A DNA stretch of 64,000 bases. Origin: Artemia franciscana (Eukaryota; Arthropoda; Branchiopoda; Anostraca; Artemiidae). The notes below the pieces were generated by a model. That model made no database searches. It was given only the letters and a program-made list of their open reading frames with translations, and had not been told where the DNA came from. Positions 3,064 through 63,209 of this stretch are shown piece by piece; position 1 is the stretch's first letter; every line of letters starts with the position of its first letter. A program made the translations under genes and the position numbers. Where the stretch lies: the NCBI RefSeq assembly GCF_032884065.1, contig NW_027062861.1, positions 1 through 64,000 of the forward strand, given 5' to 3'.

Positions 3064-3205
3064 CCTTAAAAGATCTAGTCCACTTTGATCCAACATTTTC
3101 ATGGTTTGCGCAAGACTATCTGTAGTCCAATTTGGAAATGTTTTCTTGTAATCCGGTAGTTCTGTTACCCCTGGCCAAATATCATCTGTTGGTGTTCGTA
3201 ACACT
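3064..3205 (-). CDS. cdk1: cdk1 exon 6 (C-lobe, residues 222-268)
   Basis: 142 bases. The acceptor is TTTTACAG followed by A, which completes the Arg codon split from exon 5 (AG|A). It encodes a C-lobe segment starting [20 protein letters not shown] and ending SGLDLLR. The donor is AAGG|GTAAAC at 3,063-3,062, phase 0. Known Cdk1 proteins continue here with K-M-L and a YDP motif. No such sequence is seen from 3,063 to 1, so the last exon is outside the window. The first ~35 bases of this exon recur as decayed copies upstream (see 3,171-4,130). Confidence 0.94.
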
Positions 3206-6200: not shown

Positions 6201-9200
6201 GATCTTTTGAATTTGAGATTTATTTTATTTCATTAATCGTTCTGAAGTTAAATTCAAGCTCAACAACGTTCGATAGTGGAATTATTTTGAGAACAAAACC
6301 TTGTCTAATCTTACCTAAATATCCTATAGAGCTGGTCGATTTCTGAATCTCCTTGGAAAAGCGGTCTTTTAGTAACCATTTCTGCCATAATGCAGCCAAT
6401 ACTCCACATATCAACCGGACAAGAGTATCGTTGAGCCCCCAAAAGCACCTCTGGAGCTCTGTACCACAAAGTTACAACCTAAAAGAAATTGCAATTATTC
6501 CTACTTCTTTTGGCAACAAATGAATGCACGAGGCCGGGTTTGAATTGCCTGAACCTCCTTCCCCACCCCAAACTTGAAAAAAACTGGAATATTAAACCCA
6601 AATATGATTTTTATTGTTTCCTGCAAAAATCATATATAAAGTATATTCTAGTTCAAACGTAAAATATGTATCTACTCTCTAAACAGAACCCTGAATACGA
6701 CCCAGAATAGGCCCACCAGAAACTCTATCAAAAGGTCTCTAAAAATAAAATTGGAGAGCGAAAAACCAAAATATTTAAGAAAAAATATTTTAACAATACT
6801 TTCCAAATTTAGCCTGGCTTATTTATGTCGAGCAATCTTAGGTAACCTTGTCTAACCTTTTCCAATGTTATGGTATTTGTCGTTTTAACATTAATATTTC
6901 AAAAATTACTGTCTTTTGATGGCATCACAATGGCACTGCTTAAGTATAGAGTAAAGTGAACCCAATTATTATTTTTTTTTATCAATAGATAAGGATGATA
7001 TTTCTAAGATGCATATGCCGATTGATTGCACCCCCCCTCATATATCACCTTCAGCTTCTTTTTCAAATTTGTATACGTATTTCAAGCGTACCTGAGAGTT
7101 TTCTGTGTGGTACTGCTTTGTCAATTTTAAAAATGGAAAGTCACCGACTGATTGTTCCTGCTATTGACCTATTACTGTTTTTGTAATATTAGCAAGATTT
7201 TGAGTGTATCCTTCTACCTTTTTTGACTAAAAATATTAATGAGGGTGAGAACCAATTCGGTTTTCGGCATGGGGTAGGTCGTCAGCATGCGCATAAGATT
7301 CTGTCTTCTTTACTGGCTGATAATTCTTCCAAGGGAAGTGGTCTTTATATTTGTGCTTTAGATCTTTCGAAAGCGTTTGATCGTGTGGTCCATAGTCAGC
7401 TCCTTTTTTCTCTGTGTAATTCTGGGGTCAATCTCTCTGTTATAATGCTTCTTAGGTTTTGGTATTCAAATTCTTTTCTTCAATTAAGATCTGCACCAGA
7501 TACTATTATAAAGATACGAAGAGGAGTTAGGCAGGGCGGTGTTCTGTCCCCTACGCTTCTTAAGATTTGTATTTCTAGTGTACTGGTTAAGATTTCAGGT
7601 ACATACCTTTCTGGTCTTGCGGATGTTTCTTATCTTGCGTATGCTGACGACTTGCTTTTCATTAGCATTTAAATATGTATATTCCTATACGTATATTTCA
7701 TGGAGGCCTAGCCAGAATTATCTGAATTATTTGAAAAAATAACAGAAATTAAACTAAAAAAAAACTTTTTTTTTACTGAAAGGAAGGAGCAACAGTAAAA
7801 CACAAAACGAACAGAAATTATTCCGTATATGAAGGGTTGCCCCCTCCTCAATACCTTGCCCTTTCCGCTAAAGTTTGACTGTTTATCCCAATTTTTTTAA
7901 GAACGGCTACTAAAACACAGGGGCTGTTTGGAAGGAAGTTTTTTTTTTTTTTTAAGTGCTAACAGCTTTAACGTGAAGAGCAAGGTACTGAGGAGAGGGC
8001 AACCCTTCATATACGGAATAATTTCTGTTCGATTTGAGTTTTGATGTATCTCCTTACTTTTAGTTAAACACAAGTTTTTTTTTCATTTAATAAAGGAAAA
8101 GACTGTAGTGATTCAAGAGCGTCATCAGATAATGATCAAAATGAAGCAATAGTTGAAAATCGTTAACGTATAGTATTTGTTATTGGGAAGTATACAGACA
8201 TTTTTCGGGGGGGGGGGGGGCATTTTGACCTTTGAGTGGATTTCTACTGGGGATTTTCTTCCCCCCGGGGGGGGGGGGGGTTCGTGGGAAAATCTTACAC
8301 TGGGCGATTGGATAGAATTCCTATACGAAATTAAAATGACTAGAATTTAAAATGACCCAAGAATATTTGGTATTCTAGTCTCAAAGAGACAGTCTGCACC
8401 CAATCAAGCATATACTGCCATAGGAGATATAGTACTCTTTGTTTTCATTATGACTTTTTCATTTAATCCCCCATAAGTTTCAATATCTACATACAGTCTC
8501 TAATTAGTCTCAGGATCCACCAGTCACGTGTCCTGACAAAAGTCTTATCCTGACCAATACAAGCAATTGCTGTTTTTAGCATTGGAGAATATCAGGCCGG
8601 CATTAACCTTTGCAGATCCATAATCAATCAGATTTTCGTCATTCGACAAAGAATGGAGGGATATATAAGATATCAATTAAAAATTTACCAGATAATCATC
8701 AATATCTGACAAGCATTAGACCTGATATGGCGCTAAGGACTTTGAAATATCCTTCGTTACTATAAAATTCTTAATAAAGTAGTTCAGATCATCAGGGGCC
8801 TGCATGAACTATTTTAAGGCCAAGTACTAGCCTCTGATGGGTTCAAAAAATCAACCAAATATTCATCGATATCCGACAAGCATTAGACCTGATATGGCGC
8901 AAAGGACAGTGACATATCCTTCGTTTCTTTAGAATCCCTGATAAAATAGTTCAGACCATCAGGGGCCTGCACGGACAATTTCAAGGCCAAGTTTTAGCCT
9001 CTGATGGGTTGTCAGAAGAATCGACAACTTCGTCAGGGATACTCCAGGGTTGTGTTGTGGCAATACATCTTCAAACTCTTTCTGAATGCCGTTCCGTCAC
9101 TGATGTATCCGGCATATGACAATAAATTATGAGGGCTGCTGATAGACAGTCTTGCCTATACTGATGACATAGATGAGCTAACCTATCATTCAAAGGAAAT

Positions 9201-11615: not shown

Positions 11616-14600
11616 CAAAATCCCCCAAAAAATGCAAGACTAAAATTTCTTGACAATTTGAAGGTCTACTTGAACCCTTAGAAAGAGTGAAACAAAATAA
11701 AAAGAGAAAAAAAAAATACTTCGTGTGTATAGACTCGGACAGGGATGGAAAAGGCTCTTGCTAAGCCAAAGTCTGCTATTTTGATAACTCCTTTATCATC
11801 AATGAGTAAATTTTGGGGCTTCAAATCCCTATGGACAACCCTTCTTCGGTGACAGAATAGAATTGCTTGCAAAATCTGAAAATAAAAACAAAGGTAAAGC
11901 ACAATCAACATTTTCTTTTATTTATAGTGGAGTTAAGGCTTAGGATAATCTAAATGATGAAGCAAAAATTCTACTAATTTGGTTTATTTTAAGAAAAGAT
12001 TACAGATTGATTTTTTTCAACAATGATTACAAAAAAATATGAATAATAAAAGACAAATAAGTCAACATATTCCCCCTGCAAGGCTCTATAGCGAGAAATG
12101 CAGAAAAAAAAAATGAAAATGGCGAATTACCATTCATCATTTATTACCAGCCGATAGCCAAGCCAGAAGGAAGTGCTATGTACAACACACAATGCCAATA
12201 TACAATTCAAGCTTTCCGCAGCGACATCCATCACATGGAAGCATCAGAAAAAAAAAATCAGAATTCAAATTTTCATTTTTACTTCTGAAGATGCCAAACA
12301 AGTGAGATTTTTTTTAGCTGACTCGGGTAAACTATTCTGCGGTGTATGAGAGAAATAATTTGATAATAAAAGAAAAATCTGTCCTGATACTCCCTTTGCA
12401 AGGCTCTGTGGACAGAAATGCAGAAAAAACACCAAAATAATGAAAATGACGAATTACCATCTATCACTTATTACCAGCCGATATCCAAGCCAGAAGGAAG
12501 TGCTAGGCACAACAAATAATACCAATATGCAATTCAAGGTTTCCATCGGAGCATTAAAAAAGGAAGTCAGAATTCAAATTTTCTTTTTTTTTTTTGGAAG
12601 ATATCAAACTAATGACATATTTTAGTCAACTCGGATAAACTATTCTGGGGAGTATTAGAGACAGCCAGGGGATCAAAGCTCATTCCGGCTAATATTATGG
12701 GTTTAGAGAGAATATTAATAACAATATTATACCCAAATTACAAGTTCTAGATATACTGGGTTAGTTTCTAGGCAGTTACGTTTGAAAAACACCCGTTCTT
12801 TTGGTAATTTCATTCGAAAAAAGTCACCCTAGATTTTGGTAAATACATTTCTTGTATTTTCACTAAAAACACTGAAAAAATCCTTGTCACACACCCCCGC
12901 CTCCATTCAATTTTTGTGAATAAGGACAGGGGAATAAAACATAGCTAATGCAGGGGTATATATTTTATTAATACAAAGAAGAATTGCATATAACAAATGG
13001 AAAGTTTATACACGCACTCAACCTGTATACAAAAATCCGCATTCAACATATAAAGACTTGTACGGATTAATACAATAACTATCAAATTGACAAAACTTCT
13101 CATAACATACCTAGATATACTATAAAGAAAACGAATAAAAATGTACTTAGTGTTATCTAAAAGAGTTCCAAGTACACAACTTCGAAGACCACACTGCCTT
13201 TCCATGACGAAAGTAAAACAGTTCAAAATAGGGATGAAACCTTTTTATTGACAGTGACAGATATACTGCTGATGATGTTTTTTGCTGATGAGTTTTACTG
13301 CTGACGATGAACACTGTATATGTGTTCGAAATATCCAGTTAAACAATTTTATATCTATCACTGTTAATAAAAAGGTTTCATCCCTATTTTGAACTGTTTT
13401 AGTTCCAAGTACCGAAGACAGCAAAAATGAAATATCATGAATTGGTTAAGCGGAAACTTACACGATCATACACATTAAAATATTACAGAAACGTCGGCAA
13501 CTCAACCTTTATTAAAAAAATACTTCCATATACAACTATGCAGTTTTGGTAACAGTGGAAGCTCAATATAAAAAAAGCCTGCTTAGCACTAAGCAGGTTA
13601 AGGTGCAGCTTCCCTCCGAAAATGCAGCTGTTTCTGGTAATCTATAGATACTAAATGTCTGAATTTTCATGGATGAAAAGCATTGTCAATTTTAGCTTAT
13701 CAGTTTTTCTTATTTAATATAGCTGTTCAAAGAGGTAATATTGAAGAAAAGGTGATGCTGCTATTTAAACTTCATTATTTTGAAAAAATAGAAAGCAAAA
13801 TCGTTGTAAATTGTGATTTTTAGGTATGAATAGCCCCAAAATTTCATCTTGATGTCCTTGGTACTTAAAAATATGGATTTAAAATTAGAATAAATCGTAT
13901 CATTTAAATAATCTGAATAAGCTTCGTGGACTTTCTCTAGGAAAGAGGTCACACTAAATAGGGACCCCCCCCCCAATTGCTCCTCAACAAAAGCAAAATT
14001 TTACTAGGTGTGGAAGTAAAACCGCTAGCAAAATTAGAAAAAATAAACAATACAAACAATAATAAGATGTTTAAGAAAATAGTAGACAGGATGGAACATC
14101 AGCATCCTATCCGTAAGATAAAATATTCTCAATATTTAGAAAAAAACGCTTTATAAGTACCCGAATGAACACAACTATCAAATGATTATCACTAACAGGC
14201 CAGCTCTAAACCATTTTTTATAATAAAGATTAATTTAATTGGTAAATCCTCTTATCAGGGAAAATTTTCCAAACTTACTGATAAAGACACCCCTCCCTCC
14301 CTTTATAAGATCATTTAGTGTCTTTTGAATGCAAAAGAAAAAATAATATATATTGATAGTACAATATTTTCATTCCATTTGAAGACACGGTTTGATAAAA
14401 AATTTAGGTTGAACTGAATACATAGTTCCCAAAGTTGGTCGCGTGGATCTGAAGATAGACTATCTTATCTCCTCTTTTCCCTGAATCCAAATGCTTACAG
14501 TACCAAAGACATCAAAATGAAAACACATTTTGTCCCCTGGTTTTTCGAAATAAAAAGCAAAAAATAATAATCACTCATAAGAAAAATAATTGTATTTAGA

Positions 14601-17600
14601 TTTAGTTCCGGCATCAAAGTAGTGGTGACCACTTCAATTGATGTTCATAAACAATTTTTATCAGAAAAGTGAAGAAAGCATAGAACACACCAAGCAATAG
14701 CATTATTAAGGCAGATGAATTTTTACCACGGAGATAGGGCAGCAATTCTTACTGAAGCATTGCTGGCAGCATATTTAAATTACTATAGTTACTGACAACT
14801 CCCCCCCATAACAATGCCTCCGCAGTTGCAGACGCTCTTCCTCCTTCTCACTCTGCTTTGAGCTCCACTCTTTACTCTCCCATGGAATTTCTACTTTCTC
14901 TAAATCAGTTCTTATAACCTCTTCCCAATCCCTTGGAGGCTCATCCTCCTTTCGTTTGCCCCCCTGGATTGTCACAAAGAACGACCTATGACAACTTATC
15001 TCAATAAGAGAATGGGAGAAAGCCTAGGTTCCTGTCTTCACTGCATCCTCCATCCTTACTAACAATGCTATGGTTTCAAATCTACACCCTCGGTCAATTT
15101 TCTTGTTGCATAATATGATCTCTTCATCTTCTTTCTTCCTAATCAAACCGACTTTGTTTTTCTATCTTTCATCTTCAAACCAATCCCACAACCCCCTTGA
15201 ATTCACAAAACCATCACCAGTTTTAACATTTTTATCTAAGAACCTCGGATTTCCTACGTAATCTGATTCTAGGAGATATTTCGATGTGGAAGATTATGCA
15301 ATACCAAAAAATAATAAAATATTATGGCATACCCTAGAAGGGCGCGAATTTTCTATTATCCTTCGATTAATCACTTTATTATCTTTGGACTCGTCAAGCA
15401 TTGAGGTAAGAAAAAAGGGAAAAATTTGTCACCTGGTAAGTATATGATTTGACAAGCATTGGATCCATGCTTTCACCAGATGGAATTGTGTCCATATATC
15501 TCTTAAGATCCATTGATAGAAATTCAAATACAAGGAACAGTTTTGACTCCTGTAGAATAACATCTTCAAGGCTGAAAGGGATGAACTACTTTTAGAGAAT
15601 ACCACAGATCAACTTTCTATTATATTATTATAACGAAAAGAGAAATCACCAATGAAACAGCACAAACACATAAAAAAAAAGGAGATAGAAGGAGAAAGGG
15701 AAAACTGTGTTCCTAAATTAGTGATTAATACAGACCAGCACTTGAATAAGGCCTTAACCCTACTCATCCATACAACCACATAGGTCAAACAGCATAGCCA
15801 TACACAATCAACCATAAAGAATAATCCATGGACAGGCAGTCATGTCATCAATAAGTGTAAGTCGTCATTTACCAAACAATAGAAACAATAAAGACAAATA
15901 ATTCAGAGGCGACAACCCAACACAAGGGCTCCTCAGGAGAATACGCACTTGCCTATAGGGTTTCGGCACTTTAAATTCTCTACCCAGTCAAGTGTTGTGC
16001 CTACCACAGAATATCCATGGCATCCCCGTGTCAGGTATCACCCCCAAAATACATGGGTATGAAAAAAAACCAGCAAATGTAGAACAACCAAGCAACACCA
16101 AAACAAACTTATCCTGTTAATATATTCCTCTTTTTAGCAACAATAGGTAAACTAAATGAGATAAATTTTACCAAATCACAAATATTAACACTTTGCAAAA
16201 AAACTGAATGAACTAAACAATTATAGAATTCATCTTTACCATGTGGCTATTTAAAAAAAAAAAATATTCTTAACAATCCAGTTTGATTATTCCTGTTTGA
16301 TTATAAAAGTTTGATTAAATTCCTCTTGGATAAATTATTTTGACATTTTATTACAGAAATCATACCCCTAGATTCAAGTAGCTGGCATAGATCTATAGAA
16401 AGCATATGTAAATCTAATTCATTTTTTCTATTATTTTTCCTATGTCCTCTCGATCGTTTTTTACGTTTAGTAGGACAAGTAAAAGAAGGATGGTCCATAA
16501 AACCATCAATACATTTAACAACAACCTGAGACGTGTCACCATATTTTGCTACACGATGATTTAGCCCAAAAGGATAAGCTGTACCAAGAGTATGGATCCA
16601 GAAATCCTCCTGTTTACGTAGTCTATTATTCTTCTCTTCTTTATTTAATATACTTTGTGTATATTATACTTTTTTTATACTTTTACGGGTAATAGTTCAT
16701 TCATTCATCCATATTGCTTTCGAACTTGTTTTTTTTTTTAGAGTTTTAGTTGCTGTTGACAAGAGTCTCACTTTATTTACCATCAGATCCCATGAATGGT
16801 CTGATGCCGCCTCAGATTTCAACTTGGATTTTATTCAAATGTTATATCAGCAGAGTTGCACAAAAAGTTTGTTTAATCCCAATCTAAAGAACCATCAAAA
16901 TGGCTAGGTAAAGTTATATGAATAATGGATAATGGGAAAACAGAAAAATATCATGCTTTTTGGTAATTCAGGTAGGTCCAAGCGACCACCAGGACGTACT
17001 TAATGGGGTATCGGTCCTAGTATTGTTGATGATGTGAAAAGCTGTCACCTGTACAAACTCATTGGCTTCATTTAGTTTTGGAGTTTTAGATTCTGTTGTG
17101 AAGCAGCACCAACTGAGTAGAGATAAGTATATTATTATTTTTTCTCAGAGGCACTTCATATGGAAGGGGGGTCATCCGATCGAAAACCTGACTTCTAGTG
17201 CACTTTTTAAGAGTCGGAAGTGACGAGAGGGACACTAGCCCCTCTCCCTTTTTTTTCCAAATACACCTGACCAAAATTTAAAGATATGGTAGTCATTTTG
17301 TTGAAAATGGTCTAAAGGTAAAATAATAAAGCCTCCATATTGACGGAATCGAATCCCTCACACCCTCCCCCCCAAGGAAAGGGTTGTAAGTTATGTGAGT
17401 TGTCCATCGTTAACACTTAAGACTTTCAATGAAAAGGTCACATAAACTTTGGGGGAAGGCTCACTCGACTTGAAATCGAAAGTTTTAGTTCTCTTTTTAA
17501 GAATCAAAAGTGATAGGAACACGCCCTTTTTTCTCAAATGCTTCTGATCAAACTTTTGAGATGTTCATTTTGATCAAAATAGTTAAGTCAGATAACTGTG

Positions 17601-20600: not shown

Positions 20601-23600
20601 AGGGAAGGGTGCAGTAGCCAAATTCTTGTTTGTAGTAATTTTGGTTCGTTTTAAGGTTGATTTGAATATTCAATTTAAATTTTACTCGTTTTAAGATTCA
20701 CATTTTCATTTATATTAGTATGTATCTTATTGTATGTTTCTTTGCTATGATTATGTATTAATTTCTGTTCATTTTGGGTTTCACTTACTCTTTAATAGTA
20801 ATTTCTGATCATTTTGAGTTTGAATTATAAGAATTTATTTCTGCTGGTCTTAAGTTTAATATGGCTCATTACTTTGCTTTGAAAAACTTCGTTTTTGGAA
20901 TTTTTTTTTTTAATTAATCGTACGAAAAGATCTTAGAATTGGTAAAAACTATTGTTGTGACCAACTCTGACCCCATAAATTTCTAAGGAAATAGATGACA
21001 AGAAGCCCCCCCCCCATTACCCATATAAGAAAAATTTGTCAATTAGGAATATGCACAAATGTATAGGAATACAAAAATTGGATAAATACTTTTTTTACAA
21101 CTTCAGTTCTAGTCAAAACAAAACATTCAAGATGTTTGGTTCTTCACCTAATACAGAATTCATCTTGTCTCATCTGGTAGTTTCACACGATATTCACAAA
21201 ATCTAAACAAAAAACAAATGACAAATATTCGAATGCATTACAAAATGCACTTGAGTCAATATCACAAAGTCCTAGGTATGCACCACGCTGAGGCTTTCAA
21301 AAAAGCATAGACCTTAGTTTTAACTATTTTTTTAAATCATAGATACCCCTGTTGTTTGCATAGCTTTGCTTGCAGATGGGGTATACATAATAAAAACATA
21401 TATTAGAAAAATGATACCAAACATATCAGGTTCCAAACTATTTGGAATTCAGGTTTTATTAAGATTTCTTTATCTAACTCTTGATTAACAAGTACGATTT
21501 CATGATTCTAATTTCTTTCCCAACAAGTTTATTTTTCGTTCATTTTAATAGAAGTTAAAATGCCAGATAAACTGGTTCTAGAAAACTGTACATAAATGAT
21601 TCAGTTCCAGAGTCGAGAATACTGAATAATCAATACATTTGCTCTGCTACCCCCCCCCCCCTCGTTTCTACAACTCTCTGAACTAAAAACTAAGAAACTG
21701 AAAAAAGCACTTAGTATGGATCTGTCCCCGAGTATAGATGTGGCTCTTTGCAGCCCAGTCGATGGTTCCAAAGGCTTCAACCTAAATAACATAAATGGCA
21801 AACTACCAATAAAAAAGAAAAATACTGCGTAAAAGTTAAGGCAAAGTATGTACCTAACAACATTAGGGTGTTGCAACTCCTTTAACAGTGCAATTTCTCG
21901 AATTGCAGTAGAGGGCACTCCTTCTTCTTCAGATTCAAGACGAATCTTCTTTAAAGCAACCAATTGGTCTGTCTTCTTATTTCTGGCCTTGTATACCACG
22001 CCATAAGTGCCTAAAAGTAAAAAAAATAACAGTACTCACTAGATTTGATGAAGACCGAAGACAAATAAAATAACACTTAACTGTGAAAAAAATTCAGATA
22101 CGGACCTAAAAATACACCTTCTATGAAAGATAGTTTAAAATATAAACTTGCTGAAAAATGGGCTATCACAACCAAGACATATAATATCTCTAATCTGAAC
22201 TTACTATAATTACTTGTTCATGATACAAGAAACACAATATAAATGAAATTGCCATAGAAACTTGGAAAAGGGCTAATTCAAACAAAATTATAAGCTCTAG
22301 TACACTTTACAAAGGTAAAACCAATCAGAAGTTAACAAATCTGTAGCCATCCCTTTTTTGGCTCTGGACAACCCGTAGCATTAGCAAAAATGAGCTAAGT
22401 GCAAAAATGAGATAGGTCATTATGAGACACGAATCAAACAGTTCGTGGTAACGAACTGTAGTAAGGAGCGACCCGGCTCAATAGTAATCAAAACTCTAAA
22501 AAACGGAATTTTGATCCTAAAAGATATATCAAAAGAATCGAATTTTAATGCTGATTTTAAACATGTAAGTTTCATCAAGTTTAGTCTTACCCATCAAAAG
22601 TTACGAGCCTGAGAAAATTTGCGTTTTTTTTAGAAAATAGGGGGAAACACCCTCTAAAAGTAATAGAATCTTAACGAAAATCACACCATCAGATTCAGCG
22701 TATCAGAGAACCCTACTGTAGAAGTTTCAAGCTCCTATCTACAAAAATGTGGAATTTTGTATTTTTTGCCAGAAGGCAGATCACGGATGCGTGTTTATTT
22801 GTTTTTGTTTTTTTTTTCCCAGGGGTGATCGTATCGACCCAGTTGTCCTAAAATGTTGCGAGAGGGCTCATTCTAACGGATATGAAAAGTTCTAGTGCCC
22901 TTTTTAAGTGACCAAAAAAATTGGAGGGCACCTAGGCCCCCTCCCAAGCTAATTATTTTCCAAAAGTCAACGGATCGAAATTCTGCGATAGCCATTTTAT
23001 TCAGCGTAGTCGAAAAACCTTATAACTATGTCTTTGGGAACGACTTACTCCCCCACAGTCCCCGTGGGAGGGGCTACAAGTTACAAACTTTGACCAGTTC
23101 TTACATATAGTAATGCTTATTGGGAAGTGTACAGACGTTTTCAGGGGGATTTTTTGGTTGGGGGGAGGGGTTGACAAGAGGGGGATATGTTGGGGGAAAT
23201 TTCCATCGAGGAATTTGTCATGGGGGATGAAAATTTCCATGAACGGAGCGCAGGATTTTCTAGCATTATTAAAAAAAAAACAATGAAAAAATAAATACGA
23301 AAAGTTTTTTCAACTGGAAGTAAGGAGCAGCATTAAAACTTAAAACGAACAAAAATTTTTACCCATATGAGGGGCTCACCTCCTCCTATTACCTCGCTCT
23401 TTACGCTAAAGTATTTTTAGTAATTTCAACTATTTATTCTACGGATTTTGTGATTCAGGGGGTCATTGTTAATGAATTGGGACAAAATTTAAGCTTTAGT
23501 GTAAAGAGCGAGGTACTGGCGAGGGGGCGAACCCCTCATATATGTAACAAAAACGTGAGAATACAAAAGTTCTTTACGTAAGATAACTTATAAGTTACGT

Positions 23601-53600: not shown

Positions 53601-54992
53601 TAACTGAAAATCAAGGTAAAATGTTGTTTTGTCAAAATTTCAATAGGTATAGACCTGTCATGTTGGCAAATTTCAGGGCCCTTTAGAGGGAGAAGGAGTG
53701 GGTACTTTAAAATACCTTCCCTGGACATACTTTAGCCTGTAGACCCATACCTAAAATTTTCATTTTCCTAACCTAAATCCTTTCCTAAATAGCAAGAAGT
53801 CAATTAAGTAGAATTTTACCCATTTTCCTAACCCAAACCCTTTCCAAGATAGCAAGAAGTCAATTAACTAGAAGGTAAAATTCTAGTTAATTGACTTCTA
53901 GCTATCTCTTTGAAGATATATCTTGTTTTGAAGCAACTACCTCCACTCCTTCTCCCTCCAGAGGGCCCTGACCTTTGATGACCTTTAAAAATATGTGTGT
54001 TATAAAAGTGAAACCTTGCAAAATAGATCTTCTGCTTAATTGAAGTACAACAAAAAAATTTCACCTTCATAGCTTTGCTTAATTCCATTTTATAAGGTTT
54101 TAAATATATGCAAATACATTTCCTAAATTTTGAAAAAAAATCATTGATATAGCTCAAAATTCTACTCAAATAACAGGATTGCAATTTAGAACTAAAGGCA
54201 GAGAAAAGGCAACTAGTAACTGAAAATTAAGGTAAAATGTTGTTTTGTCAAAATTTCAATAGGTTGAATATTTCAGGGCCCTCTTGAGGGAGAAGGATTG
54301 GAGGTAGGTACTTCAAAATACCTTCCCAGGACATACTTTAGCCTGTAGACCCATCCCTGAAAGTTTCATTTTCCTAACCTAAACCCTTTCTGAGATAGCA
54401 AGAAGTCAATTAACTAGAATTTTACCAACTAGAATTTTACAATTCATTTATTTATTAAAAAGTGAATGATAGTACAGGCACCTGGAATTTCTTTGGCCTA
54501 CAATTTCTCTGCAGCCTATGTTTAGAAGTAGCCTAAGAATCGTTTTATTAAAATGTTTCCTTTTACCAAGACCAGCCATCAAAATAACTCCAATCAAACC
54601 ATCAATCAAAAACTTAGTTTACATTCTGATTAACCATGGGTAAACTGGTGTGATGGGCAAGGCTACTTTGCCAAAGTGAAACCACTATGACCCTGACATT
54701 TATTCAAACTTTAGAGCAAAACTGCATATCTAAAGCTTCCAGTCTGTGTTAGCCTTAGCTTACTTGATTCAAGATTAAAAGTTATAATAGAGTTAGCATT
54801 TGTTAGCTTTCTTGAATAAAGATAATCCCACCTATGAACCATGCCTGCAAACAGGTAAAAGCTAGCCAATTATTCTTGGTTAGACCAAGTTTAAGTCAGG
54901 AAGGATATCCAAACTAAATTTCTGGAAATGAAACACAATTTCTTACCTTCACCAACTTTCTCTAATTTCTGATAGTCTTCCAAACTAGTCAT
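3064..54992 (-). CDS. cdk1: Cyclin-dependent kinase 1 (cdc2), six exons; 3' end off the left edge
   Basis: Exons on the minus strand: 54,992-54,947, 22,010-21,854, 15,571-15,433, 11,875-11,720, 6,478-6,315, 3,205-3,064. They join into 268 codons with no stop. Visible landmarks are the glycine loop GEGTYGVV, inhibitory sites Thr17/Tyr18 (human 14/15), catalytic Lys36, the PSTAIRE helix at 48-54, HRD with Asp131, DFG with Asp149, and the activating T-loop Thr164 (human 161). Length tracks human Cdk1 residue for residue, with three extra N-terminal residues. The last ~30 residues are missing and must be in an exon left of base 1. Cdk1 partners cyclins A/B and drives entry into mitosis in the nucleus and cytoplasm. 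PSTAIRE plus CHRRR and the [11 protein letters not shown] segment separate it from Cdk2, Cdk3 and Cdk5. Introns are 32.9, 6.3, 3.6, 5.2 and 3.1 kb and full of transposons. Confidence 0.95.
3171..4130 (-). repeat. Tandem, decayed copies of the exon 6 edge plus flanking intron
   Basis: The plus-strand segment starting 'ctggccaaatatcatctgtt' at 3,171 (exon 6 start plus its acceptor) recurs as 'ctggacaattctaatctgtt' (3,442), 'caccgatctcaatctc' (about 3,631), 'ctggccaaatctcatctgtt' (3,857) and a very worn copy near 4,075. Spacing is 190-270 bp. Between them runs a shared intron segment with 'ttctgctc' plus 'tacattcataaa'-like sequence (about 3,318, 3,588, 3,805, 4,035). The 3,857 copy still reads [12 protein letters not shown] on the minus strand, but its acceptor has changed from CAG to CAA at the aligned position. 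An AT microsatellite is embedded at 3,345-3,440. Confidence 0.75.
4358..4435 (-). other. Exon-like 78-base segment inside cdk1 intron 5
   Basis: On the minus strand an acceptor (GTCAGTTTAG) is followed by 26 open codons, reading [20 protein letters not shown] then AEQDVF, and then a donor (GTAAAT). Both ends are phase 0 and the peptide is amphipathic and charged. It lies between cdk1 exons 5 and 6, which splice to each other in phase without it. It could be an alternative cassette exon, an exon of a nested gene, or chance. I do not recognise the peptide. Confidence 0.22.
4440..6310. other. cdk1 intron 5 interior, no feature seen
   Basis: AT-rich sequence without long open frames or recognisable repeats. 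The only landmarks are a C-rich run near 5,169-5,197 and several A or T homopolymers. No protein similarity was noticed on either strand. Confidence 0.6.
6315..6478 (-). CDS. cdk1: cdk1 exon 5 (residues 167-221, C-lobe core)
   Basis: 164 bases. The acceptor TTCTTTTAG precedes GTT, and the donor is ATTTAG|GTAAGA. It encodes [20 protein letters not shown] and then [20 protein letters not shown], followed by [14 protein letters not shown] and the first two bases of Arg221. The APE motif (here RAPEV), the DxWSxG motif and GDSEIDQL are diagnostic of the CDK C-lobe. The exon begins in phase 0, exactly after the THE of exon 4. Confidence 0.95.
6480..6995. other. cdk1 intron 4, 3' part, no feature seen
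   Basis: Unique AT-rich sequence between the exon 5 acceptor and the reverse-transcriptase remnant starting near 7,000. No open frame or repeat was recognised. Confidence 0.5.
7000..7672 (+). pseudogene. Non-LTR retrotransposon reverse transcriptase fragment
   Basis: The main open part (7,223-7,672) reads, in order, [18 protein letters not shown] (finger region), [17 protein letters not shown] (motif A with its catalytic Asp), [14 protein letters not shown] (motif B) and [12 protein letters not shown] (motif C, YADD). These are the core polymerase motifs of LINE reverse transcriptases. Upstream, in shifted frames at 7,000-7,220, pieces such as GKSPTDC and PITV match the region that normally precedes the finger, so at least two frameshifts have occurred. 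The frame ends right after YADD, so thumb, connection and endonuclease are gone. Opposite in strand to cdk1, within intron 4. A related minus-strand fragment lies at 56,270-56,780. Confidence 0.82.
7752..8300. mobile_element. Foldback (palindromic) element copy, diverged
   Basis: Left arm at 7,752-7,880 (with 'aggagcaacagtaaaac' and 'aaacgaacagaaattattcc') is inverted at 7,975-8,091, separated by about 90 bases. It is the terminal hairpin of the family seen full length at 22,434-24,146. Beyond it, 8,180-8,300 has 'gttattgggaagtatacaga' and long G runs, matching an internal part of the same family. The right end reads CATTTAA followed by T, as in the other copies. Confidence 0.7.
8440..10690 (+). 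pseudogene. Decayed LINE (craft/RTE-like C-terminus), internally repeated
   Basis: Translating across frames gives at least three copies of reverse transcriptase motif A, seen as [11 protein letters not shown] (about 8,870), a worn copy at 8,700 and [11 protein letters not shown] (about 9,850). Motif C appears as LAYTDDI (about 9,150) and LVYTDDI (about 9,990). A C-terminal [10 protein letters not shown] segment lies at about 10,530. RWFGH after the polymerase is typical of craft/RTE-like LINE proteins. Two segments are tandem copies at the DNA level: 8,690-8,855 with 8,860-9,025, and 8,440-9,480 with 9,660-10,300. Stops and frameshifts are dense, so no product is made. Confidence 0.72.
10700..11570. 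other. cdk1 intron 4 interior, one short open frame
   Basis: A plus-strand frame without an ATG runs from about 10,914 to 11,128, containing [17 protein letters not shown] do not recognise it. It could be a remnant of another transposon ORF. The rest is AT-rich without features. Confidence 0.2.
11571..11614. repeat. Uninterrupted A44 tract
   Basis: Forty-four consecutive A residues, directly preceded by 'ctaaatcatt'. It may be the tail of a retrocopy or simple slippage. No retrocopy body was recognised next to it. It lies in cdk1 intron 4 and reads as poly(T) in the cdk1 transcript about 105 bases downstream of the exon 4 donor. Confidence 0.85.
11720..11875 (-). CDS. cdk1: cdk1 exon 4 (catalytic loop to T-loop, residues 115-166)
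   Basis: 156 bases, phase 0 at both ends. The acceptor TTTTCAG precedes ATT; the donor is GAA|GTATTT. It encodes [20 protein letters not shown], then [20 protein letters not shown], then [12 protein letters not shown]. It holds catalytic Asp131 (HRD), Asp149 (DFG) and T-loop Thr164. An oddity is Ser at the place where human Cdk1 has Gly in AFGIP. CHRRR before VVHRD is typical of arthropod Cdk1. Confidence 0.96.
12035..12660. repeat. Tandem duplication, unit about 310 bp
   Basis: The segment at 12,035-12,345 recurs at 12,350-12,660. Shared blocks in order are 'gcaaggctctat/gtgg', 'gaattaccat', 'attaccagccgatagccaag' (or 'tatccaag'), 'ccagaaggaagtgcta', 'cagaattcaaattttc' and 'aactattctg'. Copies differ by many substitutions and small indels, so the duplication is old. 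No coding content is seen in either unit. From 12,660 to 13,210 no feature was recognised. Confidence 0.75.
13213..13402. mobile_element. Small foldback repeat (inverted arms ~48 bp)
   Basis: 'aaaacagttcaaaatagggat' followed by 'gaaacctttttattgacagtg' at 13,213-13,260 is inverted at 13,355-13,402, with only a few mismatches. The ~95-base spacer contains 'tgctgatgatg' and 'tgctgacgatgaacactgta'. This is a MITE-like or SINE-like hairpin. It lies in cdk1 intron 3 territory between exons 3 and 4. Confidence 0.65.
13410..14770. other. cdk1 intron 3, no clear feature
   Basis: AT-rich. A perfect 9-bp inverted repeat (cctgcttag, 2-nt loop, ctaagcagg) sits near 13,576-13,595. Short open frames show no recognisable domain. 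C runs occur at 13,966 and 14,281-14,300. Confidence 0.45.
14800..14975 (-). pseudogene. LINE C-terminal fragment
   Basis: The minus-strand frame reads [20 protein letters not shown] and then a Lys/Glu-rich run. The pattern R-P-P-x-x-W-x-x-x-I-x-x-D-L, followed by a basic tryptophan-containing end, is common at the very C-terminus of craft/RTE-like LINE proteins. It follows the RWFGH segment in intact elements, so this may be another piece of the clade decayed at 8,440-10,690. No other part of the element was found next to it. Confidence 0.4.
15433..15571 (-). CDS. cdk1: cdk1 exon 3 (residues 69-114)
   Basis: 139 bases. The acceptor CCTTTCAG precedes C, which completes Ser68 split from exon 2 (AG|C). 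The donor is ACCAG|GTGACA, phase 0. It encodes [20 protein letters not shown], then [20 protein letters not shown], then KSYTYQ. This is the hinge and alpha-D/E region, with the FEFLSMDLK signature of Cdk1. There is no ATG-started open frame of any length here, so it is easy to miss. It was located because phase and position had to bridge exons 2 and 4. Confidence 0.95.
15600..16075 (-). mobile_element. Probable interspersed repeat (unclassified)
   Basis: The stretch has a compact, higher-GC character unlike its surroundings. It contains a hairpin (ctcctcaggag) near 15,928 and ends toward 16,020-16,060 with 'catccccgtgtcaggtatca' and an A-rich run. I have the impression of having seen this as a dispersed arthropod repeat, but it occurs once here, so membership of a family cannot be shown from the window. 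The minus-strand open frame at 15,609-15,815 is not a recognised protein. Confidence 0.3.
16080..17080. other. cdk1 intron 2, no feature seen
   Basis: AT-rich unique sequence. Short open frames, including the basic one at 16,301-16,498 on the minus strand, carry no recognisable domain or splice context that fits cdk1. Confidence 0.45.
17080..18990 (+). repeat. Tandem array, ~270-290-bp units
   Basis: At least six units. Each has, in order, 'ggaaggggtggtcacataaa', 'ttttagtgcccttttttaag' or a variant, 'gggcaaccagctccc', 'aaatgcatcagatcaaaat', 'gagaaagccattttgttc' and 'ggggcaagggctgtaagtta'. Anchor points fall near 17,388, 17,634, 17,910, 18,180, 18,302, 18,580 and 18,694. The same family occurs inverted at 960-2,290, as single or partial units at 20,040-20,200, and more distantly at 25,018-26,040. 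It lies in cdk1 intron 2. Confidence 0.75.
18711..18894 (+). repeat. Recent 61-bp triplication inside the array
   Basis: The block from 'tatgcaagcggcttatttct' to 'gtggtcgcat' occurs at 18,711, 18,772 and 18,833, period 61. The first two copies are identical. The third is identical until it runs into 'taaatttgatgg'. Neighbouring ~280-bp units are diverged, so this is a much younger expansion, or possibly an assembly artefact. Confidence 0.9.
19330..20025. repeat. Degenerate ~100-bp repeats and a TAAA-rich simple tract
   Basis: 'caggcagattgaccaagaat' (about 19,350) and 'caggcaggttgaaccgagca' (about 19,442) head two ~95-bp units that end 'tggaatgaga' and 'tggaatgaca'. A third partial unit is near 20,000. 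From 19,585 to 19,930 the sequence is built almost wholly of taaaataaa- and ttaaac-type words. No genes. Confidence 0.6.
20218..20700. mobile_element. Foldback repeat, arms ~130 bp
   Basis: The left arm at about 20,225-20,360 ('cttaaaacgagtaaaacttg', 'ttgaatattcaaaccaaacc', 'caagggtttggctactacca') is inverted at 20,565-20,700 ('gtagccaaattcttgtttgt', 'tgatttgaatattcaattta', 'ttttactcgttttaag'). The ~200-base centre is not repeated elsewhere in the window. From 20,700 to 21,850 nothing else was recognised. Confidence 0.6.
21854..22010 (-). CDS. cdk1: cdk1 exon 2 (glycine loop to PSTAIRE, residues 16-68)
   Basis: 157 bases. The acceptor TACTTTTAG precedes GC, which completes Gly16 (G|GC) of the glycine loop. 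The donor is GTTAG|GTACAT. It encodes [20 protein letters not shown], then [20 protein letters not shown], then [11 protein letters not shown]. Thr17 and Tyr18 are the Wee1/Myt1 inhibitory sites, Lys36 binds ATP, and PSTAIRE (48-54) is the cyclin-contact helix that is exact in Cdk1/2/3. The nearby run of G on the minus strand (21,651-21,662) is past the donor, in intron 2. Confidence 0.97.
22434..24146 (+). mobile_element. Full-length foldback-family element (1.71 kb, non-coding)
   Basis: It starts A|TCAAACAGTTCGTGGTAACG, where the first bases form a hairpin (cagttcg, loop, cgaactg), and ends TATTTAA|T. In order it holds a leader (22,434-22,800), a G/C-run-rich middle (22,820-23,270), a first palindrome (about 23,300-23,540), a linker (23,580-23,850) and a terminal palindrome (23,862-24,146) with arms of ~115 bp. 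No reading frame is shared between copies, so it is non-autonomous. Open frames at 22,895-23,240 are not genes. Other copies lie at 7,752, 24,457, 28,436, 42,040, 42,768, 46,178 and 57,319. It sits just inside the 3' end of cdk1 intron 1, sense strand opposite to cdk1. Confidence 0.85.
24457..24989 (+). mobile_element. Deleted copy of the foldback family (533 bp)
   Basis: The leader (A|TCAAACAGTTCG...) runs to about 24,800 and then jumps into the right half of the terminal palindrome, ending TATTTAA|T. The ~1.2-kb middle and first palindrome are missing. The join falls just after 'gccagaagacaaatcacgg', so the copy keeps both termini, as expected of a transposing deletion derivative. Confidence 0.85.
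25018..26040 (+). repeat. Direct repeat pair enclosing a trinucleotide-rich minisatellite
   Basis: The segment at 25,018-25,225 ('caagggctttaagctatga', 'tgaaactttcaggaaatgat', 'acactgtgcgtgc') recurs at 25,795-26,035. Between them, 25,310-25,680 is an imperfect TAC/GAC/TTC triplet array with longer 30-60-bp periodicity. In one frame it gives a Tyr/Leu/Thr-rich open frame (25,165-25,707) that is a composition artefact. The flanks are related to the 17.1-19.0-kb family. Confidence 0.65.
26080..27690 (+). repeat. Tandem array of ~270-290-bp units with a palindromic head
   Basis: Five units recur with the anchors 'tatttttaacttacgaacgg' (about 26,341, 26,642, 26,920, 27,205 and a worn one at 27,640), 'gaaatttgatatttagaagg', 'cttagagtggagggatcgg' and 'cataaccggaacggatc'. 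Each carries a G run of 8-13. The array is headed at 26,118 by a perfect 8-bp inverted repeat (cacttggt...accaagtg) and a 'gtcggtctgtctgtcggtc' stretch. Frames across it are not conserved. It lies in cdk1 intron 1. Confidence 0.75.
27700..28435. other. cdk1 intron 1, no gene recognised
   Basis: A short plus-strand frame (about 27,825-27,990, starting [11 protein letters not shown]) and its minus-strand shadows have no recognisable domain. A 13-base inverted repeat near 28,012-28,045 (aatgtggccaaac / gtttggccacatt) stands out. Confidence 0.3.
28436..28595 (-). mobile_element. Foldback-family fragment (leader part, inverted)
   Basis: 'ggggtgttttccccctattt', 'ctcaggctcgtaacttttga' and 'aaacttatatatttaaaatc' match the leader of the 22,434 element in reverse orientation. 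Both ends are truncated. Confidence 0.8.
28864..29241 (+). other. Unrecognised open frame, 125 codons
   Basis: The frame is open from 28,864 (after a TAA) to the TAG-type stop at 29,241, with hydrophobic stretches such as [12 protein letters not shown] and [21 protein letters not shown] see a faint likeness to the DUF21 part of CNNM/cyclin-M transporters around that last stretch, too weak to name. The upstream part contains a SINE-like segment shared with 30,050-30,110. It may be a decayed retrocopy, an exon of a nested gene, or chance. The region 29,241-30,020 shows nothing further. Confidence 0.2.
30025..30212 (-). mobile_element. tRNA-derived SINE
   Basis: On the minus strand 'ttgtgatggcgtactggaca' (A box) is followed by 'ggttcaatccc' (B box) at the right spacing. 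Then comes a body, 'gcaaggattgtg', and a segment ending 'ggccttttgtcca'-like sequence that also appears (worn) at 28,750-28,830. A short plus-strand frame here ([20 protein letters not shown]) is produced by the SINE body and is not a gene. Confidence 0.6.
30249..30358 (-). mobile_element. tRNA-derived SINE, second family member
   Basis: The minus strand shows a worn A box ('aacatagtgg'), the B box 'aggttcaattcc', and the tail 'gcaaggttgggtgacaagc' followed by 'ttgctacttgtccatg'. The tail is shared almost exactly with the copy at 51,640-51,752, which defines a family within this window. Confidence 0.65.
30370..31180. other. cdk1 intron 1, no feature; expected Helitron 3' side
   Basis: If the Helitron at 31.2-35.9 kb were complete, its 3' end (a GC hairpin and CTRR on the minus strand) should be here. 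I see no convincing hairpin plus CTRR, so the element is probably 3'-truncated or its end is too eroded to read. Confidence 0.4.
31183..32909 (-). pseudogene. Helitron PIF1-like helicase, broken
   Basis: Read from 32,909 downward it has a lead-in region, then motif I (Walker A) [10 protein letters not shown] near 32,310 and ASSGIAAT. Then there is a jump to KDLRGN, the [20 protein letters not shown] segment (motif III area) after a frameshift at 32,180, an in-frame stop near 32,050, [17 protein letters not shown] (32,006 on), [19 protein letters not shown], and after another frameshift [17 protein letters not shown] and [11 protein letters not shown] (motifs V/VI) at 31,380-31,270. The piece between IAAT and KDLRGN that would carry Walker B (a DEC/DEA-type motif) is deleted. 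With the stops, the protein cannot be functional. Confidence 0.85.
33615..34800 (-). pseudogene. Helitron Rep (HUH nuclease) region, broken
   Basis: Pieces in order: [20 protein letters not shown] and [10 protein letters not shown]-like sequence with [10 protein letters not shown] (34,796-34,479), then [20 protein letters not shown] in another frame (about 34,470-34,400), [17 protein letters not shown] with [20 protein letters not shown] (34,275-34,000), and [19 protein letters not shown] with NMIQGPCG (33,908-33,615). The HAH in LPHAHIL is the metal-binding HUH motif of rolling-circle nucleases. At least three frame changes and one in-frame stop separate the pieces. The stretch 32,910-33,580 continues the protein with many stops. 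Confidence 0.8.
34851..35529 (-). pseudogene. Helitron N-terminal region: 23-residue repeats and zinc finger
   Basis: From the ATG at 35,529 the protein starts [15 protein letters not shown] and runs into four tandem copies of a 23-residue Lys/Arg/Glu-rich unit ([17 protein letters not shown] plus EQQEN-type linker). At DNA level these are 69-bp repeats at about 35,205-35,475. A frameshift near 35,165 moves to the frame with [13 protein letters not shown] and GMCC (zinc-binding) and the conserved [10 protein letters not shown], ending near 34,851. Such repeats and this cysteine cluster are usual in arthropod Helitron N-termini. Plus-strand frames over the repeats (35,180-35,516) are shadows. 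Confidence 0.8.
35559..35845. repeat. Two 143-bp direct repeats in the Helitron 5' region
   Basis: The unit starting 'tcttacaattagaaatttgt' at 35,560 recurs at 35,703 ('tcttacaattaaaaatttgt') with ~90% identity by eye. Each unit holds two perfect TGACGTCA palindromes (35,609-35,616, 35,688-35,695, 35,752-35,759, 35,831-35,838), the CREB/ATF consensus. They lie between the Helitron 5' end and its first ATG, where its promoter should be. Confidence 0.85.
36006..36445 (-). other. Unrecognised open frames (two adjoining pieces)
   Basis: Minus strand: 36,445-36,263 contains [20 protein letters not shown] and [11 protein letters not shown]. In another frame 36,263-36,006 contains [20 protein letters not shown] and [20 protein letters not shown]. 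The second piece has coding-like composition. They might be one protein interrupted by a frameshift, possibly a transposon protein, but I recognise no motif. Confidence 0.2.
36450..36860. repeat. Degenerate ~115-130-bp tandem repeats
   Basis: Variants of 'gttttgtcttacgttaattt' followed by 'tcgtttaaaaaaacg', with 'cattccctt' or 'catttcact' between, recur near 36,465, 36,555, 36,670 and 36,765. Each unit has 'aaaaaaatgattgatg' or 'aaaaagtgactaatg'. No genes. The 150-codon frame at 37,067-37,519 further on overlaps a smaller direct duplication (37,060-37,130 with 37,235-37,295) and is unlikely to be coding. Confidence 0.5.
37917..38482 (+). pseudogene. R2/NeSL-type LINE 3' end with restriction-like endonuclease
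   Basis: From 37,917 one frame gives a worn CCHC knuckle ([16 protein letters not shown]). A frameshift near 37,990 leads into [20 protein letters not shown], then [20 protein letters not shown] (the PD...D catalytic core of the endonuclease) and [17 protein letters not shown]. An in-frame TAG at 38,201-38,203 follows, then [25 protein letters not shown] and the C-terminus. CCHC followed by a PD-(D/E)XK nuclease is the C-terminal arrangement of R2-clade site-specific LINEs. The reverse transcriptase is absent, so this is a 5'-truncated insertion. Its last codons are part of the first satellite unit. Confidence 0.8.
38455..40400 (+). repeat. ~145-bp satellite, about 13 units
   Basis: Units carry 'cagactctagtataccactt', 'gtgtctgtgtttgactgaat', 'cttgataaattcccacttca' and 'ggtaaaaacctaattca'. 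The 'gaatcttgataaa' anchor falls near 38,503, 38,650, 38,792, 39,027, 39,170, 39,312, 39,453, 39,602, 39,747, 39,882, 40,035, 40,178 and 40,323, giving steps of 135-153 with one longer gap holding a broken unit. Divergence between units is clear, so it is not recent. The first unit overlaps the last nine codons of the LINE at 37,917-38,482. Confidence 0.9.
40400..41165 (+). repeat. GT/TC-rich degenerate repeat
   Basis: Built of 'tgtgtgtttgcctgtctctg', 'tgtctatctttgtgtgtttg' and 'ttttgtctctctctcac'-like words with a loose 85-140-bp period. It begins where the last satellite unit breaks off ('atctaattcatgtttgactc'), so it may be a sequence-simplified extension of the satellite. The long frames here (Val/Cys/Leu-rich on plus, Thr/His/Gln-rich on minus) are composition artefacts. 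Confidence 0.85.
41380..41995 (+). repeat. ~108-bp tandem repeats arranged as ~215-bp dimers
   Basis: The anchor 'cctagattattcagattt' (variants) recurs near 41,500, 41,609, 41,709, 41,823 and 41,936. Alternate units carry 'atagtattcaaaagcctta' and 'actattcagaggtttcattt', giving a dimeric higher-order pattern. No coding content. Confidence 0.7.
42040..42336. mobile_element. Foldback family, terminal palindrome alone
   Basis: Arms of ~115 bp ('aactgaaagtaaggagcgac', 'aaaacgaacagaaattac', 'gctctttgcgctaaagttt') pair with their reverse complement at 42,195-42,325 around a ~35-base centre. It is flanked on both sides by TTAAAT/ACTTAAT-type ends. It is either a solo hairpin insertion or the remnant of a larger copy. 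Confidence 0.85.
42768..44341 (+). mobile_element. Foldback-family element with an internal inversion
   Basis: The leader starts A|TCAAACAGTTCGTGGTAACG in plus orientation to about 42,955. From there to about 43,925 the middle of the element runs in reverse ('acggatctttttattagtaa' at 42,961, 'cttaaaaagggcactagaa' at 43,665, 'gcttgaaacttctacaatag' at 43,842). From 43,960 the linker and terminal palindrome are again in plus orientation, ending TATTTAA|T. Compared with 22,434-24,146 the central ~1 kb is flipped. Minus-strand frames at 43,301-43,676 mirror those of the other copy and are not genes. Confidence 0.85.
44345..46177. repeat. Low-copy direct repeat region with a SINE
   Basis: Segments headed 'gaggttggattgggctcag' (44,922) and 'ggggttggattgggtgcag' (45,379) and a third near 46,005 introduce loosely similar stretches with 'ttactttcca' and 'ctgatggcaaaaata'. 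The part 46,020-46,177 is a diverged copy of 47,600-47,765. No gene recognised. Confidence 0.45.
44992..45150 (+). mobile_element. tRNA-derived SINE (second type)
   Basis: 'tcctagccatgtggttagtg' (A box) and 'gggttcaagttctgg' (B box) are spaced as in a tRNA, followed by a body 'tcagtcaaagccgacccagc' and 'gggtgcctgg', then an A-rich tail at 45,145-45,162. The head and body differ from the SINEs at 30.0-30.4 and 51.6 kb. The open frame at 45,070-45,258 comes from this body. Confidence 0.6.
46178..47053 (-). mobile_element. Foldback-family deletion copy with a readable empty site
   Basis: Inverted copy: the terminal palindrome's outer half (46,178-46,355), part of the middle (46,360-46,720) and the leader, ending CTGTTTGA at 47,053. 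The flanks are 'gacaataa' on the left and 'tttagggactc' on the right. A diverged second copy of the flanking sequence, without the element, reads 'gacaataagctagggagtc' at 47,761-47,779. The element therefore sits exactly between A and T with no target-site duplication. Confidence 0.88.
47054..48340 (+). repeat. Direct duplication, ~710-bp unit
   Basis: 47,057-47,400 ('aggttagatcaggcttagat', 'catagctatgacactggccc', 'ctccagagttgatgatcaa', 'gtggatgatcagtagctt') recurs at 47,770-48,150. The intervening end of the unit (47,600-47,765) also recurs at 46,020-46,177, so at least two and a half units stood here before the foldback insertion. The minus frame at 47,400-47,765 has no domain. Confidence 0.75.
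48340..48830 (-). pseudogene. LINE C-terminal (post-RT) fragment
   Basis: Minus-strand frames, with stops, give [16 protein letters not shown], then [20 protein letters not shown], then [18 protein letters not shown]. The order (YK-LV-P near the thumb, RRxRGD-I--YK, FFSxRxxNDWNxLPxxIV) is that of the C-terminal part of many jockey/CR1-type LINE ORF2 proteins. Truncated at both ends. Confidence 0.6.
48830..50630. other. cdk1 intron 1, no gene recognised
   Basis: CpG-poor sequence with a mixed-strand scatter of short frames and none with a recognisable motif. An A run of 15 is at 49,982. This part could hold further very old LINE sequence upstream of the fragment at 48,340-48,830, but I could not identify any. 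Confidence 0.4.
50635..50847 (+). other. Small open frame followed by AATAAA
   Basis: Open from a TGA at 50,632 to TAA at 50,845-50,847 (70 codons), containing [19 protein letters not shown] and an acidic run [25 protein letters not shown] follows at about 50,893. The look is that of a terminal coding exon. I see no confident acceptor and do not recognise the protein. It would be a plus-strand gene inside cdk1 intron 1. It may well be chance. Confidence 0.18.
50850..52640. other. cdk1 intron 1, mostly featureless with one SINE
   Basis: Apart from the SINE at 51,640-51,752, the only structure is a weak ~150-170-bp direct repeat at 51,825-52,450 ('agtgaatataccacccaatg', 'agtgagcatactactcaata', both with 'ataattgct/aataatcact'). 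No coding similarity. Confidence 0.4.
51640..51752 (-). mobile_element. tRNA-derived SINE
   Basis: Minus strand: 'gtagcacagtggattggtgc' (A box), 'ggggttcaatccctg' (B box), then the tail 'gcaaggttgggcgacaagtt' and 'tgctacttgttcctgt'. The tail matches 30,249-30,290. It is the best-preserved of the SINEs here. Confidence 0.72.
52641..53203. mobile_element. Long-TIR MITE, copy 1
   Basis: The left end is 'gtaaaattctagttaattga' with 'cttcttgctatctcagaaag'. The inverted right arm ('aataccttcccgcaaacata', 'cccctgaaagttcattttcc') ends abruptly at copy 2. The arms pair for well over 100 bp, out to 'ccctctagagggccctga', itself containing the palindrome ccctctagaggg. The ~300-bp centre has 'aaaaagcaactagtaactga'. 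No frame is conserved between copies, so the element is non-autonomous. Confidence 0.75.
53204..53819. mobile_element. Long-TIR MITE, copy 2
   Basis: Left arm starting 'aattctagttaatcaacttc' (53,205), right arm ending 'caattaagtagaattttac' at 53,819. A solo right-end fragment (53,820-53,875) separates it from copy 3. The body is ~90% identical by eye to copies 1 and 3. Confidence 0.8.
53876..54425. mobile_element. Long-TIR MITE, copy 3
   Basis: Left end 'gtaaaattctagttaattga' at 53,876, right end 'caattaactagaattttac' at 54,425, with part of the left arm deleted after 'agctatctctttgaagatat'. It is followed by a further 'aactagaattttac' stub. It lies about 520 bp from cdk1 exon 1, in intron 1. 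Confidence 0.8.
54430..54940. other. cdk1 intron 1, first 500 bases, no feature
   Basis: Unique CpG-poor sequence directly downstream of the exon 1 donor. No open frame or repeat was recognised. Confidence 0.5.
54947..54992 (-). CDS. cdk1: cdk1 exon 1 (start codon, residues 1-15)
   Basis: 46 coding bases: ATG at 54,992-54,990, reading [15 protein letters not shown] plus the first base of Gly16, and the donor GAAG|GTAAGA (54,946-54,945). EDYxKxEKxGEG is the canonical Cdk1 N-terminus, and the split Gly joins exactly to exon 2 at 22,010. Upstream in the same frame there is a TGA before any other ATG, which supports this start. The -3 base is a purine. The exon is too short for standard ORF calling and lies 33 kb from the next exon. 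Confidence 0.92.
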
Positions 54993-55256
54993 TACCACTG
55001 GTTTCTCAAACAACAGAGATTTTCAAATCAAATTTTAAGCGGTAAATTTGAGATGACTGCGTCATGGAAAACGGAAAATACTGAAAAAGTAAATGAAGAC
55101 CCAGCCTATGAAAGTAACGAAGACGTAACAGCCTATGAACTTCAGTGAAGATAGGCCGTACATAACAAGTTCTTCAATCATCATTTTTATCACTTAAATA
55201 AATGGCCGTTCATTGATTTTCTTATTGATTAGTGAGTCCCATTTGCCGTTTCAAAA
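54993..55256. promoter_or_regulatory. Bidirectional promoter/5'UTR region between cdk1 and an SR-protein gene
   Basis: 264 bp separate the two divergent start codons, so both 5'UTRs and the core promoters must fit here. The stretch has eight CpGs (for example in aagcggtaa, ctgcgtcat, gaagacgtaac, ggccgtaca, ggccgttca, ttgccgttt), while several kb on each side have almost none. Possible sites are TGACTGCGTCA near 55,066 (AP-1/CRE-like), and TTTGAA on the minus strand near 55,015, the CHR core typical of G2/M genes. No TATA box at a convincing distance and no CCAAT box was seen. Confidence 0.65.
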
Positions 55257-55305
55257 ATGAGTAACAAAATGAATCCAGACTGCAAATGTTATGTTGGAGA
55301 TTTGG
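55257..55305 (+). CDS. First coding exon of an SRSF3/SRSF7-type SR splicing factor
   Basis: The ATG at 55,257 (context CAAAAATGA, purine at -3) opens MSNKMNPDCKCYVGDLG, with the last Gly split at the donor G|GTAATA (55,306). CKxYVGDLG is the first strand (RNP2) of the RRM in the Rbp1/x16/SRSF3/SRSF7 group, which begins within ~15 residues of the start and in several members has an intron at this Gly. These proteins bind exonic enhancers and mRNA-export factors in the nucleus. No continuation (an NPPGFAFVEF-like RNP1 exon) is found up to 64,000, so intron 1 exceeds 8.7 kb or the call is wrong. The GTAATA donor is weaker than consensus. Confidence 0.6.
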
Positions 55306-55412
55306 GTAATATTTTATTTCGAACTATATTTTTATTATTATCACTTTTATTTGGATTTAAGAAAATGTTTAGGTCTAGTGACAGATATCCCATAGTCTAC
55401 CACAAGAAGTCA

Positions 55413-55846
55413 GTAAAATTCTAATTAATTGACTTCTTGCTATCTCAGAAAGGGTTTAGGGTAGGAAAATGAAACTTTCAGGGATGGGTCTACAGGCTAA
55501 AGTATCTCCTGGGAAGGCATTTTAAAGTACCCATTTACACTCATTCTCCCTCTAGATGGCCCTGAAATTTGCCTACATGACAGGTCTATGCCTATTGAAA
55601 TTTTGACAAAACAACATTTTACCTGAATTTTTAGTTACTAGTTGCTGTATCTCTGTCTAGTTCTGGAAATGCAATTCCTGTTAATTAAGTAGAATTTTGA
55701 GCCATATCAATGTTTTTTTCCAGAATTTATTAAATGTATTTGCATATCTTTAAAACCTTATAAAATGGAATTGAGTGAAGTTATGAAGCTGAAAACAATT
55801 TTGTTATAAATTGAGATAGCAAGAAGTCAATTAACTAGAATTTTAC
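55413..55846. mobile_element. Long-TIR MITE, copy 4 (internally deleted)
   Basis: Left end 'gtaaaattctaattaattga' at 55,413, full left arm with 'ccctctagatggccctga', then the centre. The right arm is cut to its last ~40 bases ('gagatagcaagaagtcaatt' to 'agaattttac' at 55,846). It begins ~110 bases after the SR-gene exon 1 donor. Confidence 0.8.
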
Positions 55847-59085: not shown

Positions 59086-59159
59086 TAGTGTTTCTAATTT
59101 TTGTGACAACAGAAACTATAGTGTCAAACAAACACTACAAATTTTTTAAACAAATTTTT

Positions 59160-63208: not shown

Positions 63209-63209
63209 T

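Follow-up and report, generated by a model that had tools for sequence, protein, structure and literature searches.

A head-to-head cdk1 and probable SRSF3/7-type gene pair in Artemia franciscana and its putative shared promoter

Divergent gene pairs and the geometry of the locus

Divergently paired genes, which lie on opposite strands with transcript starts less than 1000 bp apart, are reported to account for 31.6% of Drosophila genes (PMC2670823). The fly pairs are described there as being largely TATA-less housekeeping genes, and the pairs of insects in general as more dynamic and less conserved than those of vertebrates (PMC2670823). The gene for the splicing factor SRSF3 is stated to have E2F sites upstream in vertebrates, and a TATA box in addition to these in its human promoter (PMC10321290). 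Its knockdown is reported to cause G2/M arrest in U2OS and HeLa cells, and G1 arrest in HCT116 cells (PMC10321290). In many promoters repressed by DREAM a CDE is described four bases upstream of the CHR, and the p107 promoter is given as having a non-consensus CHR, TTTGAG (PMC4974476). The Artemia franciscana genome is reported to have a GC content of 34% and exceptionally long introns (PMC8406910).

In the window (the whole 64-kb stretch of A. franciscana DNA analysed here), two start codons open divergent reading frames, and the separation of 264 bp given in the earlier note is exact. The minus-strand ATG (54992–54990) is that of cdk1, and the plus-strand ATG (55257–55259) that of a probable SRSF3/7-type gene. 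The features around them are:

54993..55256, both strands: intergenic segment, putative shared (bidirectional) promoter; 264 bp between the ATGs, without TATAWAW
54947..54992, minus strand: cdk1 coding exon 1 (15 residues plus the first base of the next codon), with donor GTAAGAAA; from tblastn and splice borders
55257..55305, plus strand: probable SRSF3/7-type first coding exon, of 16 codons and one further base, with donor GTAATATT at 55306; from strand score, ATG and GT donor
55039..55052, plus strand: loose CDE/CHR-like site GCGG-TAAA-TTTGAG, the sole GCGG-N4-TTYRAR on both strands of the window
54443..55410, both strands: repeat-free run of 968 bp holding both start exons, flanked by inverted copies of one repeat

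Like described divergent pairs, the two genes lie on opposite strands with ATGs well under 1 kb apart, have no TATA box between them and are of housekeeping type. The arrangement is ordinary in kind; in a search of listings of open-licence papers, a head-to-head pairing of cdk1 with an SR-protein gene did not turn up. Judged from the geometry, a shared promoter is plausible, and the case for these particular partners, cdk1 and an SR gene, is suggestive. On balance we think it probable that the two genes form a divergent pair in which the 264 bp act as one two-way promoter firing both. Under this arrangement, cdk1 extends to the left for at least 51.9 kb, the SR-protein gene would continue rightward past the end of the window, and the segment between them would be a compact, TATA-less promoter, active in both directions in proliferating cells. 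The identity of the plus-strand gene would then hold beyond its first RRM strand, the transcript starts would lie inside the 264 bp, and co-regulation would come about through shared factors, for example at an E2F/DREAM-type CDE/CHR site.

The minus-strand gene and its repeat-rich surroundings

The minus-strand gene had been named cdk1 in the earlier note, and this is borne out by a multi-exon gene with consistent splice sites and frame. The exons that follow exon 1, all located by tblastn and splice borders, are:

21854..22010, minus strand: cdk1 exon 2 (glycine loop, PSTAIRE helix)
15433..15571, minus strand: cdk1 exon 3
11720..11875, minus strand: cdk1 exon 4
6315..6478, minus strand: cdk1 exon 5
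3064..3205, minus strand: cdk1 exon 6

A typed human CDK1 sequence used as tblastn query matched the five internal exons strongly and the start exon weakly (E 0.067), all six hits being collinear on the minus strand. The exon 1 peptide joins the five later exons in frame via donor GTAAGAAA, and all five introns in the window (32936, 6282, 3557, 5241 and 3109 bp, the first being 32.9 kb) have a GT donor and an AG acceptor. Joined together, the six exons amount to 804 bases with the frame kept throughout, giving a product of 268 aa (54992 to 3064) that shares 73.5% identity across 264 aa with the typed human sequence. The gene covers at least 51.9 kb of the window. The PSTAIRE helix and the kinase catalytic motifs fall within this one frame-consistent gene, and Pfam recognised the product as Pkinase (1.4e-69). 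Among the best 60 of 103 matches to solved structures, CDK1 came top with 454.9 bits, compared with 401.4 for a CDK3 fusion, 396.6 for the best CDK2 chain and 331.8 for CDK5. The gene is a genuine cdk1, nearer to CDK1 than to CDK2, CDK3 or CDK5.

The 64-kb window yielded no sequence coding for the rest of the C-terminus, and the last exon probably lies to the left of it. Unlike known CDK1 (cdc2) genes, this one has a 32.9-kb first intron with transposon-like ORFs, and its coding end is outside the window. A scan of viral contigs for cdk1 relatives gave nine pattern matches, none of them a relative of the query. Intron 5 holds a decayed partial copy of exon 6 and its pyrimidine tract (3913–3856, minus strand), with 47 of 58 bases identical to 3227–3170; this copy has lost the acceptor AG of the original.

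Some 34% of the window has a similar counterpart elsewhere within it. The 968-bp run with the two start exons lies between inverted repeat copies at 54270–54430 and 55408–55568, which are 91% complementary. The window has 21 repeat-free runs of at least 300 bp, 12 of which are longer than this one; the repeat-free setting is consistent with constraint and is no proof of it. The repeat family around the start exons occupies 52640–54440 and 55408–55850, with copies both in tandem (spaced by about 560–620 bp) and inverted. Within cdk1 intron 1 is an ORF for a PIF1-like helicase (32963–32181, minus strand; PF05970, 3.2e-17). Together with the neighbouring minus-strand ORFs up to 35525 it is presumably part of a Helitron, to judge by its look; Pfam gave nothing relevant for the ORF at 34851–35525. 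On the other side, minus-strand ORFs at 63235–61030, in the putative first SRSF intron, are taken by us to be retroelement-like from their appearance. For one of them (61030–61722) Pfam returned an RVT_1 match below the cut-off only (E 0.026), and in another (62144–63235) it found no retroelement-type domain. Neither Rfam (at gathering scores) nor ARAGORN gave a match in the window.

The plus-strand exon

The earlier note had assigned the plus-strand exon to the SRSF3/7 type. Of this, the strand resemblance, the ATG and the GT donor stand, while a convincing RRM continuation did not turn up in the 8.7 kb that follow. The peptide DCKCYVGDLG scores 47 (BLOSUM62) against the best of five typed SRSF3/7-type first RRM strands, used with the filter [VIL][GS] at the core. 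The next best score elsewhere in the window is 26. In dinucleotide-preserving shuffles of the window the best score was 39, and 47 was reached in none of 150, a control that overstates certainty somewhat, the family having been picked post hoc and the last Gly being included in the score. That glycine, the 17th residue of the peptide in the earlier note, is read across the donor and is really set by the next exon.

An RNP2 strand (KVYVGNLG-like) is present near the N-terminus as KCYVGDLG, with C for V as a departure and the last G across the donor. What is shared with SRSF3 and SRSF7 (fly Rbp1/x16) is the DCK-YVG-LG first RRM strand at the N-terminus. Compared with human SRSF3, C replaces V and D replaces N; fly x16 likewise has D at the latter position. 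A difference from SRSF3 and SRSF7 is the intron directly after the strand, and the window showed neither the remainder of the RRM nor an RS tail, which would be located outside it.

With SRSF3 as tblastn query, this exon was the best match in the window, yet a weak one (E 0.062, 25.0 bits). A convincing continuation of the RRM (RNP1, GFAFVEF) was not found in 55307–64000, the 8.7 kb to the right of the exon, where the best SRSF-like matches reached 20.8 bits for the minus strand and 20.4 bits for the plus strand, the latter lacking an intact RNP1. These weak matches, near 62.4–62.5 kb, lie across the long minus-strand ORF 62144–63235 and were taken for chance. A phmmer search of solved structures with a 25-aa peptide from the window gave no matches. 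Pfam gave none for the 21-aa plus-strand peptide; this says little, because a typed human SRSF3 start of the same 21 residues in length misses Pfam too.

These results bear on a reading in which the exon is a chance peptide or the relic of an SR gene, and the cdk1 promoter an ordinary one-way promoter. It would account for a resemblance carried by just 10 residues, the last of them across the donor, for the modest tblastn E value, for a second exon not found in the window and for the lack of a family or structure match. The shuffles argue against it, as does the fact that the resemblance ends at a usable GT donor and comes after an in-frame ATG. A second exon more than 8.7 kb off, past 64000, is also unsurprising because the cdk1 introns in the same window measure 3.1–32.9 kb. 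We consider this reading improbable; based on some 10 residues and a donor, the plus-strand piece is probably the first coding exon of an SRSF3/7-type gene.

The 264-bp segment

Eighteen consensus motif patterns were counted in the segment between the ATGs. No E2F, strict CDE/CHR, TATA, CCAAT, CRE, DRE, YY1, Ohler1 or Myb-like motif was found in the 264 bp. TATAWAW does not occur on either strand of the segment, which is weak evidence since 0.49 occurrences are expected; for the human SRSF3 promoter, in contrast, a TATA box is reported (PMC10321290). The Initiator TCAKTY occurs once on each strand, at 55181 (plus) and 55096 (minus), where 1.08 are expected in total. An Initiator on both strands was seen in 398 of 2000 segment shuffles, i.e., at chance level; if both were used, transcription would start at sites about 90 bp apart, in what is a model only. 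DPE is near chance (8 in the segment, 9.1 expected). Somewhat high are TTYRAA (4, with 2.2 expected), TTYGAA (2, with 0.73 expected) and TTTGAG (2, with 0.24 expected), TTYGAA occurring in 1329 of 2000 segment shuffles.

The loose site at 55039 is the single GCGG-N4-TTYRAR in 64 kb and lies inside the segment; the pattern occurs in 6 of 2000 segment shuffles. It is oriented toward the SRSF gene and away from cdk1. The strict form SGCGG-N4-TTYRAR does not occur in the window, and the looser SCGS-N4/5-TTYRAR occurs six times there and in 49 of 2000 segment shuffles. The DREAM/MuvB CDE-CHR arrangement, in which the CDE precedes a TTYRAA CHR by four bases, was not found. The site carries little weight because 18 patterns were tried. 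CpG enrichment was dropped as evidence, the ratio of 0.99 being matched by 12.6% of windows. The segment also holds an inverted repeat, ATGAC-TGC-GTCAT (55053–55065), and a 10-bp direct repeat, AGCCTATGAA (55103–55139), the copies of which start 27 bp apart.

Part of the 264 bp could instead be intron, if at least one of the genes started at a noncoding exon elsewhere and its ATG exon were the second. On the cdk1 side there is a strong acceptor-like site, TCATTTACTTTTTCAG, ending at 55081 (minus strand). Its score of 10.7 beats three of the five cdk1 acceptors (7.7, 8.0, 10.3, 12.0 and 12.3), and sites scoring at least 10 are expected about 0.07 times per 264 bp on one strand; an acceptor-like site on the plus strand, ending at 55232, is weaker (7.3). 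Against this, the matrix was made with these five acceptors and no others, and in many housekeeping genes transcription begins at the ATG exon. For cdk1, a noncoding first exon and a start near the ATG would both fit, and we regard an upstream exon for either gene as rather unlikely. Six ATGs lie upstream of cdk1 within the 264 bp. The nearest, at 55065, opens a uORF of 19 codons (55065–55006, minus strand), which leaves a gap of 13 bases to the cdk1 ATG, and this uORF is a possible translational brake if the transcript begins upstream of it.

Both genes may also be real and adjacent, and yet be separately controlled. Co-expression is not obligatory for divergently paired genes, and a clear shared motif was not found in the segment among the 18 patterns. 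Divergent pairs are also frequent, at nearly a third of genes in flies (PMC2670823). A segment of 264 bp, on the other hand, would be cramped for two independent promoters should both starts fall within it, and separate control seems to us somewhat unlikely. A wider proposal is that in some lineage of arthropods the head-to-head linkage of cdk1 with an SRSF3/7-type gene is maintained, a single cell-cycle promoter of CDE/CHR type ensuring that kinase and splicing factor are made together. The lower conservation reported for insect pairs tells against expecting the cdk1/SRSF pair to be kept (PMC2670823), and we hold this proposal to be quite doubtful.

A functional link between cdk1 and SRSF3 would be reasonable, the evidence being mixed. 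If the favoured reading of one promoter for both genes is right, the amounts of the mitotic kinase and of the splicing factor would be tied together in the DNA itself; mammalian SRSF3 is reported to promote G2/M progress (PMC10321290). In genomes with introns of tens of kilobases, tiny first exons set the positions of promoters, and, as the earlier note soundly reasoned, annotation based on length may miss them.
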